A stretch of 46,865 nt of DNA from an uncultured Bacilli bacterium (GTDB lineage Bacteria; Bacillota_I; Bacilli_A; RF39; UBA660), in the NCBI GenBank assembly GCA_944350445.1, contig CALVOW010000010.1:1-46865 (forward strand), in the 5' to 3' direction. A program made the translations under genes and the position numbers. Shown in pieces: positions 15,679 through 23,792 of the stretch. The notes below the pieces were generated by a model. That model was not told the DNA's origin and ran no database searches. It was given only the letters and a program-made list of their open reading frames with translations. Positions within the stretch are counted from its first letter, which is position 1; each line of letters starts with the position of its first letter.

Positions 15679-15708
15679 AAAAGTCACTGAACTAAATTCA
15701 GTAACTTT
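15679..15708 (-). terminator. Rho-independent terminator at the left edge of the island
   Basis: AAAGT-C-ACTGAA and TTCAGT-A-ACTTT pair with one mismatch around CTAA. On the minus strand the hairpin is followed by a run of T. It would end transcripts of the 969-residue protein gene. Confidence 0.7.
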
Positions 15709-15718
15709 CGCATTTTTA

Positions 15719-15795: not shown

Positions 15796-15930
15796 GTATA
15801 AGTCACAGTCAATAAAGGTGATAGATTAAAACAATTATTATTTCAAAGTTTAGATACTTTTTCTTTAATACATAATAAATATACCATCAATATTAAAAAA
15901 AGAAAACGTTAAATAATAATTCTTTTAGTA

Positions 15931-18840
15931 TTAATAAATGTTATTTTTTTCTTTCTTTAAAATTTTTGCTTTATTTTTAGAAATTGATTTTTGTTCTAAT
16001 TCTGCCCTACTATCAAAAGAATTACTAAACTGTTCTATAGAACCATCTTTATAAGTTATAACATACCAATCATCATTACAATAAACTTCTTTTAAATCTT
16101 CTACATCTATTGCTTTATATGAATCTATTGTATTTTCTTTTTCTGCTTTAACATATCTTAAAGCATTAACTTTCTTATTCATGATTTTTATGTAATCCTC
16201 TTCATAAGATTCATCGTCCGAATAAACCATAATATCTTTTCTATCATCTTGATAAGCAAAACAACTTTGTCCCAAATTAAATATACCATTTCCTCTAATT
16301 AAGTATTGAACATTTTTTGAATCAGAATATCCAACTTCTTCAATAGGTTGTGGTAAAACATCAACGAATTTTCTATTACTTCCTAATCTACTTCCGAAAT
16401 CTTTATCTTCAAGATTACAAGTTTTTGCTATTAAGCAAGGATACTGTTCAATACCTTTTATTTCTTTATCAAAATTTGTAAATCCAATAGTTATATTTTT
16501 AATGCAACTTTCTATTCCCTCTGATTGATATGAAGTTTTTATTAATTCATCTGCAAATTGTAAATATACATCAAAAAAATCTACTGAGTTTATTTTTTTA
16601 GAAATTTCAATATTATCTAAACATAATAAATCTCCATTTCTCCAAACCCAACTATGTGCTAATATTTCATTACTTTTTTTAATAACTAAAATTCTACCAT
16701 TATTACTTGTTAAAGAATGTTTTAAACATGAATATCCATTTCCTAATACAGTAAAGCAACAATCTGTTTTATTACCTATAGCTAATGCTTCCATATTATC
16801 TAATCTTAATATTTCATAAGAATATTCATCTTTTGTTCCTGTAATTCTTGGTATTGTAGAATTTACTCTAGTTAACATTTGATCATGTAATAATAAAGTT
16901 TCATTCACATTACTATTACTGCATCCAATAAACTTGAATAATCCTTCTAAACGATAATATTTAGGTGGTAATGATATTTCATCACTTTTTAAAAAATCTA
17001 TTATTATTTTTAATGATTTATCTTTATCATTCATAACAATCATTTCCCATTCACTAAATATTCTTGGGAAGTATTTATACAAATCATTATCTTTATTAGA
17101 TAACATTTCTTTAATCTTTGAATAATCTTTATCACTAAACAATAAATTCATTAATTTGGTATTTAATATTGGATTATATTGTTCATCTAATTTTATATTT
17201 TTAACATCTACATTACCTACTAAATGTTCTAATACAGGTAATGTATCGTCTATTTCTAATATGTTTTTTGCATTATTAAATCCAACCATTAAAATCAATT
17301 TTAAAATTAATTGTTTGTAACTTCTAAAATGCCAATCACTATTTTCAAACTTTTTACATAATTGTTTATGTTGTTTAACATTATAATTTTCTAATTGTTC
17401 TACTGTAAAATCTTCTACTTTGAAATCAATTTGTCCTAATCTATTAAATATTGTTATTTCTTCAATACTAAATAGTTCATATAAAATTGTTATTGATTTA
17501 CCCATAACAATTTTATAAAATAATTTTTCTATTTCTTTAAAATTATTATTTTCAATATTGTTTATAATATTTTGATTTTTTAAAAAATTTATAAAATTAA
17601 CTAAATGTTTTTTATAAGCACCATCACTTTTAGAAATAGTATTATTTTGAAACATCACTTTTAATTCGCATAAATTCTTTAAATATTTATCAGAAAAAAT
17701 TGAAGTTGTTTCATCTATTTTTTCTAATACACCTGTTGGTATAATGTTATTTCTATATTTTTCTTCAACATACCCTAATGCAGATACATCTCCTTTATGC
17801 CAATAAGAAGTATAAAACTTTGTATCAAATAATTCTTCTATATCAACTATTTCAAAAGTATCTAATATATTTTTAAAATCATCATTGATTGTTCTAGTCT
17901 TAGAACACAGTTTAATCCAATCATTTAATGTTAATGAATTAAAGACTTCTTTATTTTTACTATACAAATCTATAATAATTTTAGGACTTATTTTAGATAT
18001 TATCTTTTTTAGTTCTTGTTTCTTAATTATATTTTCAAAAAAGTTTGATATTAAAATTTCTTGCTTTGAGCTATCCGTTTCACTTAAATATTCTTTTAAA
18101 TCATATTCATCAATATTATCAAAAGCAACATTTAATTTAACATAATGTTTATTTACAAATTCTTTATATACTTCTATATTCTCTATATACTTTAGAAATG
18201 ATAAAAGTTGTCTCGGATTAAATTGGTTAATTTTTTCATTAAACTTATCTAGGAAGAAATTCATAAATTCTTCATTATAAACTCTTTGTTGTTGAAAAAC
18301 ATTGTTTATATCATTTATATTAGCAGTTTCATAACAACATCTATTATGAAAATATAATCCATTAATAAATTCTCTATTTTCTACTTCTAATAATTCACTA
18401 TAAAATTCAGTATAAAAACTATAGTAATCTTCATGAGCAAATCCATGAAATAAATTTTCAGGATTTTGACTTATAACTTTTTTAAATAACTCAACATCAA
18501 CATTTCTTAATTCTTTTAAAACATTAAAAGAAAGAAAATATGATAAAGATCTAGGAGCCATCATTGTATATAAAAATATATCTTTATCATGTTCTTTAAT
18601 ATATTTAATATTTTCTTTAAAAAATGTTATTTGTTTTTCTTCTGGTAATTTACTAATAATATAATAAATAGTAAGAGGAGTCATATCATTAATATTTTTA
18701 TTACCAGTTTCAATATATTCATCACACTCTTTAAGTGCTTTTTCTTCGTTTTCTTTACTAATATTTAATGAAAGTGGTATTGAATTTTTTTTAAGTTGTT
18801 CTAATAAATCTTTCATTTGTTCATCAGTTAATTCTGGCAT
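15931..18840 (-). CDS. Large unknown protein with a conserved-looking C-terminal Cys/His/Trp domain
   Basis: I cannot assign a family to this 969-residue protein. The first 650 residues are Asn/Lys/Glu-rich and mostly helical, with repeated short helices (ISKISPKIIIDLYSKN, FNSLTLNDWIKLCSKT) that suggest a helical-repeat scaffold. Around 685-750 there is a compact block, NKTDCCFTVLGNGYSCLKHS then LVIKKSNEILAHSWVWRNGD, LLCLDNIEI, which looks like an enzymatic or ligand-binding core reminiscent of GNAT or PcfJ-like domains. A possible small strand-rich domain (NVQYLIRGNGIFNLG, DDWYVITYKDGSIEQF) ends it. No signal or membrane segment is seen. GGGGG precedes the ATG. It follows the ankyrin-AAA+ gene by 21 bases, so the two are probably one functional unit. 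Confidence 0.8.
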   Translation of the reverse strand: MPELTDEQMKDLLEQLKKNSIPLSLNISKENEEKALKECDEYIETGNKNINDMTPLTIYYIISKLPEEKQITFFKENIKYIKEHDKDIFLYTMMAPRSLSYFLSFNVLKELRNVDVELFKKVISQNPENLFHGFAHEDYYSFYTEFYSELLEVENREFINGLYFHNRCCYETANINDINNVFQQQRVYNEEFMNFFLDKFNEKINQFNPRQLLSFLKYIENIEVYKEFVNKHYVKLNVAFDNIDEYDLKEYLSETDSSKQEILISNFFENIIKKQELKKIISKISPKIIIDLYSKNKEVFNSLTLNDWIKLCSKTRTINDDFKNILDTFEIVDIEELFDTKFYTSYWHKGDVSALGYVEEKYRNNIIPTGVLEKIDETTSIFSDKYLKNLCELKVMFQNNTISKSDGAYKKHLVNFINFLKNQNIINNIENNNFKEIEKLFYKIVMGKSITILYELFSIEEITIFNRLGQIDFKVEDFTVEQLENYNVKQHKQLCKKFENSDWHFRSYKQLILKLILMVGFNNAKNILEIDDTLPVLEHLVGNVDVKNIKLDEQYNPILNTKLMNLLFSDKDYSKIKEMLSNKDNDLYKYFPRIFSEWEMIVMNDKDKSLKIIIDFLKSDEISLPPKYYRLEGLFKFIGCSNSNVNETLLLHDQMLTRVNSTIPRITGTKDEYSYEILRLDNMEALAIGNKTDCCFTVLGNGYSCLKHSLTSNNGRILVIKKSNEILAHSWVWRNGDLLCLDNIEISKKINSVDFFDVYLQFADELIKTSYQSEGIESCIKNITIGFTNFDKEIKGIEQYPCLIAKTCNLEDKDFGSRLGSNRKFVDVLPQPIEEVGYSDSKNVQYLIRGNGIFNLGQSCFAYQDDRKDIMVYSDDESYEEDYIKIMNKKVNALRYVKAEKENTIDSYKAIDVEDLKEVYCNDDWYVITYKDGSIEQFSNSFDSRAELEQKSISKNKAKILKKEKNNIY

Positions 18841-18861
18841 GATATTATCCCCCTTCCTTTT

Positions 18862-20448
18862 TTATTTTTTAAATCTATTAAAATCTATTTTTAATACTCT
18901 CTGTGCTGGCTTAGATATACTTGTATCTAAATTTTTTAATCTTGCTATTGCTTGCTCTCTTGTAGATTCATAGATTCTATCACAATATTCAAATCCTTCA
19001 ATAAAGTGTTCTACTGTAATAAATTCACTATCATAAACTTTTGCAAATGCAAATGCTTTATCAACAATAGAAATAGCTAAATCTGGATTATTAACCATAT
19101 CATTATATACTCTATGACTTTTTTCAGTAGCACTTAATATAATATTTACTATTTGAGTTCTTATATTTTCGTTCTCAAATGATATTCCATTTTTTACATA
19201 ATAATCTCCAATTACTTTATCAACTATTTGATATAAAATATCATCAGTAGGTTCTTTAACAGTGATTTTTTCAAATCTTCTTTTTAAAGCATCATCACTA
19301 AAGAACTTTTGATATTCTTTTTCAGTTGTTGTTCCAATTACTTTTAAATTAGATCTATCAATATAATGTTTTAACATAGATGCCATGTCATTATCTTTAC
19401 CTTTAGTTGAACCAATACCATATATTGTATGAATCTCATCTATAAATACAATTACATCTAATCTTTCACATAACTTCATTAATTTAGTCATATTATCTTC
19501 AAACATTCCAACATATTGGCATCCTGCAACTATATCACTTGGATTAACTTCTAAAATTATTTTCACTTGTAAAAAGTTTGGTACTTGTCCCGTTTTAATT
19601 CTATAAGCAAGTTCATCTACTATTGCAGTTTTACCTACTCCTGATTCTCCAACAATTAATGGTCTTTTTTTATCTTGAGCTAAAGTAATCATAAGATTTT
19701 TTAACTCTTTTTCTCTTCCAATAGTTGGTGCAACTATATAATTTTTCTTATTTAATACTTTTCCATATTTTTCAAGTTCTGAAATATCTTTGTCTGATAG
19801 AGTTGATGTTACTGTAGCAACAGAAACTTCTTGTCTTACTGGTGCATTATTAACAACAACAGGTTTAATTTCTTTAGGTTTATTATCTTTTTGAATCATA
19901 GGATATTTTTCTTCAAATTTTTTCTTAAAACTTTCTATTTGTTCTCTAGAATATTGTTTTTGGAAAATCATTGCTTCAAGTAAATTTCTACCTTCTGAAC
20001 AAACTTTAGTACAATCATATCCATTAGAACATAATAAATCATAAATTCTTTCAACTTCACCCAAATAATCATCACTATATATTGCAGTATGCATAATAGT
20101 ATCTTTATCACTATCAATATGATTAATGTTTAAATTGTATTTTAATGCTTCAGTAATAATATTTAAAATAAATTCCTCACTATATCCAGCATATAAAGCA
20201 GTTTGAATAAAATTATAATTATAATCTGCTTCTAAGTTTGGACTTAATCCAATTTGTAATAATGATTTAATAGCTAAAAAACACTTTGCTTCATCATACT
20301 TATCATCTACTAAAATATGTAATATTGATTGATTATCATCATCAGTATAATCCAAACTACCAAATGCACCCTTAATCTTTTTTACATTAGAATGCATATC
20401 TTGTGTCATTTTTGATAATAAAAATCTTATATTATTTTTATTTAACAT
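18862..20448 (-). CDS. Ankyrin-repeat AAA+ ATPase with ClpA/ClpB-type D1 domain
   Basis: The 528-residue protein starts with ankyrin-like helix pairs (about 35-165: DDDNQSILHILVDDKYDEA, YNFIQTALYAGYSEEFILN, KDTIMHTAIYSDDY, GRNLLEAMI). A linker at 185-235 leads to one AAA+ module of the Clp D1 type: GREKEL (244-249), Walker A GESGVGKT (267-274), pore loop QYVGMFE with Tyr 312, Walker B VIVFIDE (332-338), sensor-1 IGTTT, arginine finger LKRRFEK, then the C-domain. All ATPase residues are present, and the pore tyrosine suggests threading of protein substrates. The ClpB N domain, middle coiled coil and D2 are absent. AAAGGGGG precedes the ATG. It is probably the motor for the 969-residue partner downstream. 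Confidence 0.88.
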   Translation of the reverse strand: MLNKNNIRFLLSKMTQDMHSNVKKIKGAFGSLDYTDDDNQSILHILVDDKYDEAKCFLAIKSLLQIGLSPNLEADYNYNFIQTALYAGYSEEFILNIITEALKYNLNINHIDSDKDTIMHTAIYSDDYLGEVERIYDLLCSNGYDCTKVCSEGRNLLEAMIFQKQYSREQIESFKKKFEEKYPMIQKDNKPKEIKPVVVNNAPVRQEVSVATVTSTLSDKDISELEKYGKVLNKKNYIVAPTIGREKELKNLMITLAQDKKRPLIVGESGVGKTAIVDELAYRIKTGQVPNFLQVKIILEVNPSDIVAGCQYVGMFEDNMTKLMKLCERLDVIVFIDEIHTIYGIGSTKGKDNDMASMLKHYIDRSNLKVIGTTTEKEYQKFFSDDALKRRFEKITVKEPTDDILYQIVDKVIGDYYVKNGISFENENIRTQIVNIILSATEKSHRVYNDMVNNPDLAISIVDKAFAFAKVYDSEFITVEHFIEGFEYCDRIYESTREQAIARLKNLDTSISKPAQRVLKIDFNRFKK

Positions 20449-20525
20449 ATAGAATTCCCCCTTTGAATTGTGTTATATAATAACATAAAATGTAAAGTTT
20501 TACAAATTATACTTCTCTTTTATTC

Positions 20526-21446
20526 TTAAAAAACATCATTTATTGTATAAGTATCATCAAAATTACCATAGCATGTCTTTATTTCATACAATTTCTCTTT
20601 ATCACTATAGTAATTTGAGAATTCTATTAAAAATTCTTGATTAATTAGTTCTAATATTTTTAATACTTCATCAATTAATTTAGTACCTGATATAATATAG
20701 TCAAAATATATGTCATTACTTATATATAATACCGTTGGTTCACTTTTTCCTTTACCTTTAGCAGATTTATGTGGAAATAATAAGTCGAAGGGATTATAAT
20801 CTCGATTTTTTATTGAAATATCTATCGCTTTTTTTATATTTACATCTTTATATATATCGATTAAAGTTGATAACAAAGATATTTCATTATCTTTAATTTG
20901 TACCATTAAAATTTTTGAAGAAAACTCCATATATCTACTACATTTATTGGTATTTCTATCATATCTAGTTTCAGTTGTATGTAATATTCTGTTTCTAAGC
21001 ATATAGATTTGCCACCAAATACCAAATTGATTTCTACTTGGATATATTTTCTCGATAGCTTTTGCGTTTAAATATTTTGATAATATTTGCTTTTGTTCTG
21101 ATTCAAAAACTACTGATACAGAAGCTATAAAAGCATCAAAGTAAAAAGTTAATTCTTCATATCTTTTATCTGGGCAAATTGATATATTATTTTGTTTTAA
21201 TAATTCATCCTTTGAAACAATTTCATTAAACAAAGTTAAATATTTTTTTAAAAAGAATATTATCTTACTGATTTTAAATGAGAAATCATCAAATAGTTTA
21301 TTTGAATCATACCTTACAACTTCTTCATCAGTTTGATTTTTATACTTTTCAAATCCAATTATATTTAATATGTTTATTTGCTTAGATAATTTATCAACAT
21401 ACTTTATTTGATTATTTATTTTATCAAATAATGTTTTATAATCCAT
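20526..21446 (-). CDS. Unknown protein with a HEPN-type R-N-x3-H motif
   Basis: A 306-residue mostly helical protein. Residues 148-157 read YMLRNRILHT, a match to the R-x4-6-H signature of HEPN ribonucleases, including Asn after the Arg, and it is preceded by long helices as in that fold. A second half contains FDLLFPHKSAKGKGKSEPTV and more helices. The whole is otherwise unrecognised. It follows the 267-residue gene by 25 bases and is separated from the AAA+ gene by 77 bases. HEPN proteins are common toxins and defence effectors, so an RNase role is plausible but rests on one motif. Assigning a family would need a profile search. Confidence 0.65.
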   Translation of the reverse strand: MDYKTLFDKINNQIKYVDKLSKQINILNIIGFEKYKNQTDEEVVRYDSNKLFDDFSFKISKIIFFLKKYLTLFNEIVSKDELLKQNNISICPDKRYEELTFYFDAFIASVSVVFESEQKQILSKYLNAKAIEKIYPSRNQFGIWWQIYMLRNRILHTTETRYDRNTNKCSRYMEFSSKILMVQIKDNEISLLSTLIDIYKDVNIKKAIDISIKNRDYNPFDLLFPHKSAKGKGKSEPTVLYISNDIYFDYIISGTKLIDEVLKILELINQEFLIEFSNYYSDKEKLYEIKTCYGNFDDTYTINDVF

Positions 21447-21471: not shown

Positions 21472-22275
21472 TTATTTCTTTAGACTATGAATTAATTTAA
21501 TAATAGTAATACCATAATCTATTAAAAATTCTTTTTGTTCTTTACTAAATTGCTTTCTTTCTTCTAATGCATTATTGCTAGCATGTCTAAAACATTGTAT
21601 TTGTTTTCTATAGTTTTTTATTATTTCATCATCTATATATTTAAAACAATACTTCGAATAATCTAATTTAATAAAATTTCCATCTACACATAAAAGATTT
21701 TCAATAAGATTTGCTATTTCTTTAATTTTTTCATCAATAGTCATATTTTCAAATCTTGCATTCCTAGTAGAAATTTCTATAAACATTTTATCAATATTAG
21801 TTTCAATTTTAATGGATGTTTCTTTTTCAAAAGTCAAATTTTCTACCATTTTTCTTCTAGTCATATATTGAACTGTACCATTATGATCCAAACCTCTCTC
21901 AATTGCTAAATTTCTTATATCAATGCAAGTAAATTTATACGGATCATCAGGTGGCCTATCAATAATTCTAGGAAATTCTTTTATTCTATAACTATTGTCA
22001 TGTAAATAGAATAGAGAAAAGTAAAATAATCTTGTATTTTTTATAGTGGTAATATCAAGATTAGGTTCACATAAATCTTTCAAGGTTCTTACAACATCTT
22101 CATCATCGTAGACTTCATATTCTATCTCATCATATGGATCTTCATTAGTTATAAAATTCATTTCATCCATTGTTTGTTTATCTTCTTCTGCTTTTGTTAT
22201 TAATTCATTATAGAATTTATAATAATAATCTTCTTTTGATACATGTTCCTTATAATATTTTTCAAGATTAATCAT
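21472..22275 (-). CDS. Unknown island protein, possible Abi-like helical C-terminus
   Basis: The 267-residue protein begins with a Glu/Asp/Tyr-rich segment (FITNEDPYDEIEYEVYDDED) and ends in a helical region: ISTRNARFENMTIDEKIKEI, ANLIENLLCVDG, CFRHASNNALEERKQF, FLIDYGITIIKLIHSLKK. The latter pieces recall the C-terminal helical domains of abortive-infection proteins, but no catalytic motif is clear. GAGGTG precedes the ATG, and a good extended -10 promoter lies 20 bases further up. It is cotranscribed with the HEPN-motif gene downstream. Confidence 0.6.
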   Translation of the reverse strand: MINLEKYYKEHVSKEDYYYKFYNELITKAEEDKQTMDEMNFITNEDPYDEIEYEVYDDEDVVRTLKDLCEPNLDITTIKNTRLFYFSLFYLHDNSYRIKEFPRIIDRPPDDPYKFTCIDIRNLAIERGLDHNGTVQYMTRRKMVENLTFEKETSIKIETNIDKMFIEISTRNARFENMTIDEKIKEIANLIENLLCVDGNFIKLDYSKYCFKYIDDEIIKNYRKQIQCFRHASNNALEERKQFSKEQKEFLIDYGITIIKLIHSLKK

Positions 22276-22340: not shown

Positions 22341-23195
22341 CTATTTATTGATATTTTTATAAGCTTTTATCGCCTCAATAATATATTGTTCAATATATCT
22401 TTTATCTCTTTTCGCTAAACTAAATGGTAATACACTTATTATCTTTGATTTATTAAAAGATATTTTTTCATGTTGATTTCCTTTTTCCTCTAATAAAATT
22501 TTATCTATGTCATCGAATGTTAATAATTTTTTTGAACTAAGTTTTCTTATTCTTATTGCTTGTGCATGGCTTGGCGTTGTATCTTCATATGTTATTGCTG
22601 AGTATACTATCTGTTGTTCAGTTTTAGAAAGAAAAGATAATTCTACCGCAGGTAATAATCCCATAGTTAAATTATGTTCTTCTTTTATTTTTCCAGTATT
22701 ATCAACTATTTCTAATAACTCAGGTATTAAATATGTTAATCTTATATATCTTTGAATTTGTCTTGCACTATCATTACTTTTTTCTGATAATTTTTCATCA
22801 CTTCTTAACCTCGTGTCATTATGACACGAAGTTTTACCTTGATGCTTCATTGCTTCCATTTTCATTCTATAAGCAAATGCTTTTTCACTTGGTAACAACT
22901 TTTCTCGATACATATTAGAATCTACCATAAATATTGTAGATTCATCATCATTTAAATCTTTAATGATTGCATCAATTTCTTTTAAACCTAATATTTCATA
23001 TACTTTCTTTCTTCTATGACCTGATAAAAGTTCATATCTGTTATCTTCTTTTTTTCTAACTACAATAGGTACTAATAATCCATTTAGTTTTGTACTTTCT
23101 ACTAGAGTATTTAATTCATCACCTAATTCTACTTTATATGGATGATTCTTAAAATCATCTATTTCACTAATTTTAATTTTTATTATTTCATTCAT
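22341..23195 (-). CDS. ParB/Srx-domain (KorB-like) DNA-binding protein
   Basis: A 284-residue ParB family protein. The N-terminal ParB nuclease/CTPase-like domain shows KISEIDDFKNHPYKV, NGLLVPIVVRKKED and LLSGHRRKKVYEILG with GHRR at 59-62, then SNMYREKLLPSEKAFAYRMK. The central helix-turn-helix includes SEKSNDSARQIQRYIRLTYL. It resembles the plasmid and integrative-element ParB proteins of Bacillota, and no ParA is present in the window. Its start overlaps the end of the regulator gene by eight bases. A perfect 19-base palindrome lies within its coding sequence. It may act as a partition protein or as a regulator of the island. Confidence 0.88.
   Translation of the reverse strand: MNEIIKIKISEIDDFKNHPYKVELGDELNTLVESTKLNGLLVPIVVRKKEDNRYELLSGHRRKKVYEILGLKEIDAIIKDLNDDESTIFMVDSNMYREKLLPSEKAFAYRMKMEAMKHQGKTSCHNDTRLRSDEKLSEKSNDSARQIQRYIRLTYLIPELLEIVDNTGKIKEEHNLTMGLLPAVELSFLSKTEQQIVYSAITYEDTTPSHAQAIRIRKLSSKKLLTFDDIDKILLEEKGNQHEKISFNKSKIISVLPFSLAKRDKRYIEQYIIEAIKAYKNINK
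22811..22829. promoter_or_regulatory. Perfect 19-base palindrome inside parB
   Basis: TCGTGTCATTATGACACGA has two perfect nine-base arms around one base. ParB proteins often bind palindromes in or beside their own gene, so this is a candidate parS-like or autoregulatory site. It does not match the canonical chromosomal parS (TGTTTCACGTGAAACA). Confidence 0.4.
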
Positions 23196-23649
23196 TACTA
23201 TCTTCCTTTACTTTATAATTTATCTTCCATTCAAAATATTCTTCATAATTAACTATCATTTTTTGTTTTTTATCTCTCATAGTATTCCATTCGTCAAAGA
23301 ATGAATTAATAGTTTCATCATCAGTATTTAAATCAATTCTCATTTTAGGAAACATTTCTTCTAGCCATAATAGAAAATAAAGAATATCTGATGTACTTTT
23401 AAATTCATATTGTTTAATTAAATTATCATTTACTAAAAGTATATTTGATAATTCCTGTAATCTAGATTTACTTGGATTCCTCTCTCCCTGTTCATATCTA
23501 GTTAAAGTTCTTCTTTTATTTTCACCAGTTATTCCTAAATCATCTGAAACATTATCTTGAGTTAAATGTCTAAAAATTCTCACAAATTTTATTCTTGATC
23601 CTTGTGATAAATCATAAAGGTCAGGCCTTAAATATATTCGATTTCGCAT
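23188..23649 (-). CDS. Xre-family helix-turn-helix regulator
   Basis: The 153-residue protein carries an N-terminal Cro/C1-type domain at about 18-75: SRIKFVRIFRHLTQDNVSDD, LGITGENKRRTLTRYEQGER, NPSKSRLQELSNIL. The remainder is acidic and unrecognised and may bind a ligand or partner. The ATG at 23649 is chosen because AGGAGG precedes it by seven bases. A longer frame to 23736 lacks a ribosome site and runs through hairpin sequences. It is the first gene of the island and overlaps parB by eight bases. The inverted repeats just upstream are candidate operators for it. Confidence 0.85.
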   Translation of the reverse strand: MRNRIYLRPDLYDLSQGSRIKFVRIFRHLTQDNVSDDLGITGENKRRTLTRYEQGERNPSKSRLQELSNILLVNDNLIKQYEFKSTSDILYFLLWLEEMFPKMRIDLNTDDETINSFFDEWNTMRDKKQKMIVNYEEYFEWKINYKVKEDSNE

Positions 23650-23670
23650 TGTCTCACCTCCTTTTTTCCT

Positions 23671-23724
23671 GTCGCAAAAAAACATAAAAAAAGCTAAGAT
23701 ATGCGACATTAACCAATATCTTAG
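23671..23724. promoter_or_regulatory. Nested inverted repeats, candidate operator of the island regulator
   Basis: CTAAGATAT (23694-23702) and ATATCTTAG (23716-23724) are perfect nine-base arms around 13 bases. Interleaved with them, GTCGCA (23671-23676) and TGCGAC (23702-23707) form a second inverted pair. They lie 22-75 bases before the regulator start, where an operator or leader structure would be expected. Confidence 0.45.
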
Positions 23725-23792
23725 TCTAAATTTCAAATTTTATATTAATTTTTAGTGTAAAATATATAAATCTAATTTTTTGTAAAAAATTA

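Follow-up and report, generated by a model that had tools for sequence, protein, structure and literature searches.

A candidate mobile regulator-effector gene pair, an ankyrin-Clp D1 ATPase and a large protein with a predicted GNAT-like domain, in uncultured gut Bacilli

What is the task of a bacterial protein that joins ankyrin repeats to a single Clp-type ATPase module, and what links it to the large protein encoded directly behind it? The question is raised by a stretch of 46,865 nucleotides (the window) from an uncultured Bacilli bacterium, in which the gene for the ATPase (here called Ank-D1) comes first and the gene for the second protein (P969) lies downstream after a gap of 21 nt, each with a strong Shine-Dalgarno sequence (Table 1). 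The promoter-like site upstream of the ATPase gene is only a fit to the consensus, and such sites are no more frequent in this region than in its shuffled versions. Both genes show a dN/dS of 0.155 between the window and a relative from another genus, so neither open reading frame can be regarded as a chance one; the corresponding values for the parts of the ATPase are 0.06 for D1 and 0.22 for the ankyrin region.

Table 1. Coordinates of the features at the Ank-D1/P969 locus (positions in the window).
Feature	Position	Strand	Remarks
Terminator-like hairpin	15679-15709	minus	about 220 nt downstream of P969; consensus match only
Mobile block	15860-20510		promoter region and both genes; 4.65 kb, 94.5% identical to G170
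P969 gene	15931-18840	minus	969 aa; modelled as an all-helical solenoid (residues ~1-640), then a GNAT-like alpha/beta domain (~660-790), with more strands and a helix up to 950
Conserved C-terminal domain of P969	15991-17043	minus	residues 600-950; defines the wider family
Ank-D1 ATPase gene	18862-20448	minus	528 aa; ankyrin repeats, residues ~18-181; disordered linker, 185-215; D1 module, ~216-514; conserved tail RVLKIDF
Promoter-like site	20477-20505	minus	lies within the conserved block, 5' of the ATPase gene; TTGTAA-17-TATTAT with TG
306-aa protein	20526-21446	minus	no family match; absent from the G170 copy
267-aa protein	21472-22275	minus	no family hit of note (lowest Pfam E=0.25)
ParB/Noc-like protein	22341-23195	minus	flanks the module in the window and in G170; two ORFs in G170
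HTH regulator	23188-23736	minus	between ParB and ppdK

The ATPase consists of four N-terminal ankyrin repeats and one complete Clp D1-type AAA+ module. The NCBIfam ClpA profile matches over D1 only (residues 209-474 against profile residues 161-413, E=1e-52), the PDB matches are ClpA and ClpC chains, and the best fold and sequence matches are Clp D1 modules. Walker A (GESGVGKT, residues 267-274), Walker B (FIDE, 335-338), the sensor-1 TTT, the arginine pair of LKRRF (390-391) and the pore-loop tyrosine Y312 in AGCQYVGMFE are all kept, and the relatives vary in these columns hardly or not at all. A Clp N domain, M domain and D2 are absent, as the 528 residues hold one module and the profile matches end at D1. 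The ankyrin assignment appears weak if the protein is taken alone (Pfam Ank_5, E=0.002), but is solid at the profile level: a profile of the N-terminal family (residues 1-185 plus homologues) matches PDB ankyrin and DARPin chains with E=2e-30, a homologous stand-alone ankyrin partner passes the Ank_4 cut-off, and the AF2 model of the N-terminus shows successive regular helix pairs (block pLDDT mostly 79-96, with one block at 58). A profile was used for this assignment, the top 50 Foldseek hits for the Ank-D1 model all being AAA+ proteins, and bare ankyrin proteins were left out of the structure alignment because they misaligned onto the AAA+ part. The picture drawn in the initial annotation, namely two open reading frames spaced by 21 bases, an ankyrin-like N-terminus, retention of Walker A and B, sensor 1, arginine finger and pore-loop tyrosine, and loss of the N domain, middle coiled coil and D2, is thus borne out in all these respects.

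The same catalytic motifs and a pore loop of the type AGxxYxGxFE are shared with the D1 rings of ClpA, ClpB and ClpC, whereas Ank-D1 has a single module, lacks a Clp N domain, an M domain and D2, hence offers no place for a ClpP-docking loop, and stands in a clade separate from these double-ring Clp/Hsp100 chaperones. Closer in layout is Skd3 (human CLPB), the metazoan mitochondrial disaggregase, in which, likewise, ankyrin repeats precede a single AAA+ module of the Clp family. Skd3 contains an NBD2-type module with a GYVG pore loop, together with an MTS and a CTD, and its activity requires the ankyrin domain (PMC7343390). Ank-D1, in contrast, shows the D1-type AGCQYVGMFE instead of an NBD2 module with GYVG, is bacterial, and is cytosolic as judged by its sequence. 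The initial annotation had noted the Skd3-like layout while setting the module apart from the D2 type, and the ClpA match, the ankyrin profile and the D1 tree agree with that distinction. As far as sequence comparison goes, the likeness is one of convergent layout, and Skd3 is an architectural analogue only, not a family to which Ank-D1 belongs.

A phylogeny of the AAA+ domain, suggested as a check when the locus was first annotated, places it in an unnamed clade of single-D1 ATPases and not in a family of different function. Among 53 D1 domains, the 34 that come from single-D1 proteins of the host bacterial family all fall into a single clade (SH-aLRT 100), separate from ClpA, ClpB, ClpC and the viral Clps, within which the housekeeping members group together (SH-aLRT 100), as do the six P969-paired ATPases (SH-aLRT 95). 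According to the match tables, a housekeeping single-D1 ATPase of ~300-420 aa is encoded, in addition to double-ring Clps, in almost all genomes of the host family. These proteins (e.g., G000:C24:3491-4360) share the clade and the single D1 module with Ank-D1, but are devoid of ankyrin repeats and of a P969 partner, and the closest relatives outside the P969-paired clade carry varied N-terminal regions. In two inspected loci the housekeeping gene is found near ClpB, namely in G000 at the position just given (L252:3164-4414) and in G002 (L251:3975-5075). A separate observation concerns two Clp genes on viral contigs (L239:4899-6239 and L240:4941-6293), in which the Walker A GK of D2 is followed by a C-x(2-3)-KxTxIT-like text resembling the start of an intein.

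For P969, an AF2 model built from 36 sequences (pLDDT 83.9) predicts a helical solenoid and, after about residue 640, the order beta-beta-alpha-alpha-beta-beta-beta-alpha-beta, which corresponds to the GNAT topology, the GNAT-like strand-helix order being modelled at residues 667-786. Foldseek searches with the model return importins/exportins and many GNATs, the best GNAT matches reaching probabilities of 0.96-1.00 but E-values of only 0.04-0.17. The viral structure library BFVD yields a sole match below 0.001, the uncharacterised 656-aa phage protein A0A7G9A3X2 (E=3e-7 over 742 columns, 13% identity), besides weaker GNATs. Searches with P969 in Pfam, NCBIfam, PHROGs, phages, plasmids and PDB sequences gave nothing meaningful, including no Pfam GNAT match. 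A similarity to PcfJ, suspected by eye, was rejected (hhalign against PF14284, probability under 1%). The invariant residues of the C-terminal domain (R658, IP663-664, G689, CC694-695, R716, S730-W731-W733-R734, C740-D742-N743-E745, and Y759) cluster on the modelled strands beta3, beta4 and beta5 and in the alpha1-alpha2 region. In GNATs, these elements form the cleft. Because the conserved residues fall on the modelled cleft strands, P969 is probably an effector enzyme. It resembles GNATs such as GCN5, PaiA, and RimI in the modelled strand-helix order, and GNATs recur among the structural matches with the E-values given above, but it lacks the acetyl-CoA loop of motif A (Q/RxxGxG/A), with no conserved glycine between E745 and Y759, and shows other conserved residues instead, including the CC pair and WxWR. 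We read the domain as a GNAT-like fold without assigned chemistry, and its reaction would likely be something other than a standard acetyl-CoA one.

The C-terminal domain of P969 is encoded in 74 of the 291 genomes sampled from the host family and in none outside that family in a 295-genome sample of the phylum. The 350-residue domain recovers 61 genome loci, mostly from MAGs of gut Bacilli and Clostridia, and its profile finds three distant members of the family in viral contigs; with full-length P969 as the query, the viral scan was empty. One member (L149, CANQZY010000095) lies on a contig labelled Methanobrevibacter, which is probably a binning error. On some contigs several P969-domain genes occur close together (G254:C1:27682-34862; also in G255, G220, and G288), which suggests local expansion. 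The genes found within 60 nt of P969 relatives fall into three main homology classes, with 32 ProA-like partners, eight of a 246-491-aa type, and five consisting of ankyrin or ankyrin-D1 proteins, and the class of the partner follows the P969 tree. The ProA-like partners match gamma-glutamyl phosphate reductase from the PDB with E=7e-19; at about 30 loci (such as L144:6011-7054 and L123:9124-10101), a P969-family protein of mostly 1183-1874 aa overlaps a downstream ProA-related gene of ~340 aa. The ProA-like profile match skips positions 223-247, near the expected catalytic cysteine, and this partner may be a pseudoenzyme. Bare ankyrin proteins homologous to the N-terminus of the window ATPase stand beside AAA-less P969 relatives at L119, L121, and L047, with L126 nearby, which argues for an association of ankyrin and P969 that is independent of the ATPase. 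Bare ankyrin genes precede the large gene at some loci and follow it at others, and a fusion-first order of events cannot be told from a bare-ankyrin-first one in the ankyrin tree. Since the family occurs without AAA+ modules, the component common to all appears to be P969, with the ATPase as a controller that one clade acquired; these gene neighbourhoods suggest an ATPase added on to an ankyrin partner and speak against P969 as the adaptor of the ATPase.

Among the 291 genomes, P969 adjoins every Ank-D1 of the clade or starts at the contig edge beside it (window, G170, G214, G157, and G095); L108 adds one more pair. At the G095 locus both genes are decaying and still paired. The relative of P969 at L108:1046-3697 is 78% identical in the domain and ends early at 883 aa, with the D1 part of the ATPase intact. 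The fusion itself is not strictly tied to P969, which is missing from the surroundings of two further ankyrin-D1 proteins (L085 and L092). The block comprising both genes is 94.5% identical at the nucleotide level to its counterpart in G170 (CAMEJC010000010), which belongs to another genus, and its edges lie abruptly just outside the two genes; the flanks reach 69% in the HTH-ParB DNA and 80% in the ppdK DNA, and the rsmE proteins are 43% identical. Horizontal movement of Ank-D1 and P969 as one unit is supported by this sequence comparison, and the pair is co-inherited, co-transferred and co-lost under purifying selection. The assignment of P969 as the partner of the ATPase, made in the initial annotation, is strengthened by genes that move and decay together, while its alternatives of substrate adaptor or effector fared differently: the occurrence of the family without AAA+ modules speaks against the adaptor, and the effector is probably correct.

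The reading that we prefer, tentatively and with less than even confidence, is that of a horizontally mobile two-gene regulator-effector module in which an ankyrin-D1 motor controls the GNAT-like P969. The ankyrin arm would bind P969, to which the bare ankyrin partners beside AAA-less relatives point; the D1 module would form a hexameric ring, ATP-driven pulling via the pore-loop residue Y312 would remodel or restrain P969, and this remodelling would switch the GNAT-like active site. Remodelling rather than proteolysis should be expected, and a partnership with ClpP is unlikely, because a protein lacking D2 has nowhere to carry a ClpP-docking loop. Alternatively, the genes may represent a toxin-antitoxin or effector-immunity pair, with P969 toxic through its GNAT-like domain, the ankyrin part neutralising it by binding and, in this clade, D1 stripping or unfolding the toxin. 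This would fit adjacent and co-transferred pairs, the small ankyrin partner of some relatives, a partner type that tracks the large protein, and the joint decay in G095; but gene order varies, the ankyrin gene standing on either side of the large one, lengths of 900-1700 aa are uncommon in toxins, and at L108 the ATPase is kept next to a shortened P969 copy. We consider the pair unlikely to be of this kind.

The mobile, patchy and multi-partner nature of the family, the combination of a solenoid with an enzyme-like domain, and the few defence genes near relatives would also be in line with an anti-phage system in which infection is sensed by the P969 solenoid and the effector is the ankyrin-D1 ring, unfolding proteins of the phage or the host. 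This reading is rather improbable: the constant component of the family is the C-terminal domain of P969 and not the ATPase, and the neighbourhoods consist mostly of core genes, with the defence matches counted without a background. Less probable again is a Skd3-like disaggregase acting under stress, for which P969 would serve as scaffold or substrate adaptor; this reading could explain the shared layout, the dependence of Skd3 on its ankyrin domain (PMC7343390), and the intact pore-loop tyrosine and catalytic motifs, but conflicts with a D1-type module in place of the NBD2 type, with a patchy, non-core distribution in a host that already has double-ring Clps and housekeeping single-D1 proteins, and with the conservation of the P969 C-terminal domain without any AAA+ module. 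That Ank-D1 and P969 are unrelated chance neighbours is close to refuted by the edges of the 4.65-kb block just outside the two genes, by the presence of both at every locus of the clade and by the recurrence of a homologous ankyrin beside P969 relatives, even if a search for conserved neighbours of the other surveyed single-D1 ATPases found none shared beyond one closely related pair, indicating that such ATPases can work alone.

For the mobile regulator-effector module, an accessory role in conflicts, either in defence against phages or mobile elements or in competition, seems most likely, although this is the weakest step of the argument; what favours it is a family that is mobile, diverse, patchily distributed and in places arranged in tandem (e.g., G254:C1). 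PADLOC returned no system-model match for P969 and only generic, weak AAA matches for the ATPase. The neighbourhoods of P969 relatives contain mostly core genes and scattered defence models (mad3 twice, mad8, LmuB, and PDC models), counted without background comparison.

Extending the preferred reading to all relatives, it is quite possible, though still short of probable, that they form a mobile, apparently undescribed two-gene regulator-effector family of uncultured gut Bacilli and Clostridia. A solenoid/GNAT-like effector of ~765-1870 aa would be combined with swappable dedicated partners, namely bare ankyrin proteins, ankyrin proteins with a single-ring Clp module, ProA-like proteins that may have lost catalysis, or the 246-491-aa type, and the partner in the window clade would be an ATP-driven remodeller of Skd3-like design built independently from D1. 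A literature search in open papers found no description of such a system, which is limited evidence of novelty. If the reading is true, ankyrin repeats and one Clp ring were assembled twice, with D2 in animal mitochondria and with D1 in bacteria, and the pair would offer a compact genetic system for studying the control of one dedicated partner by a single-ring Clp motor. The P969 family is common, yet matched no library used, and its swappable partners provide a natural experiment on the control of a GNAT-like domain.

The 306-aa and 267-aa proteins encoded next to the block are probably both outside the module. In two genera, the space separating the module from ppdK holds ParB/Noc-like and HTH genes (window 22341-23736 and L036:7544-8764), and this region looks like a shared insertion site. 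Inside the parB gene, a near-perfect 19-bp palindrome, TCGTGTCATTATGACACGA, occurs at positions 22811-22829 as a single copy in the window and is possibly a parS-like site.
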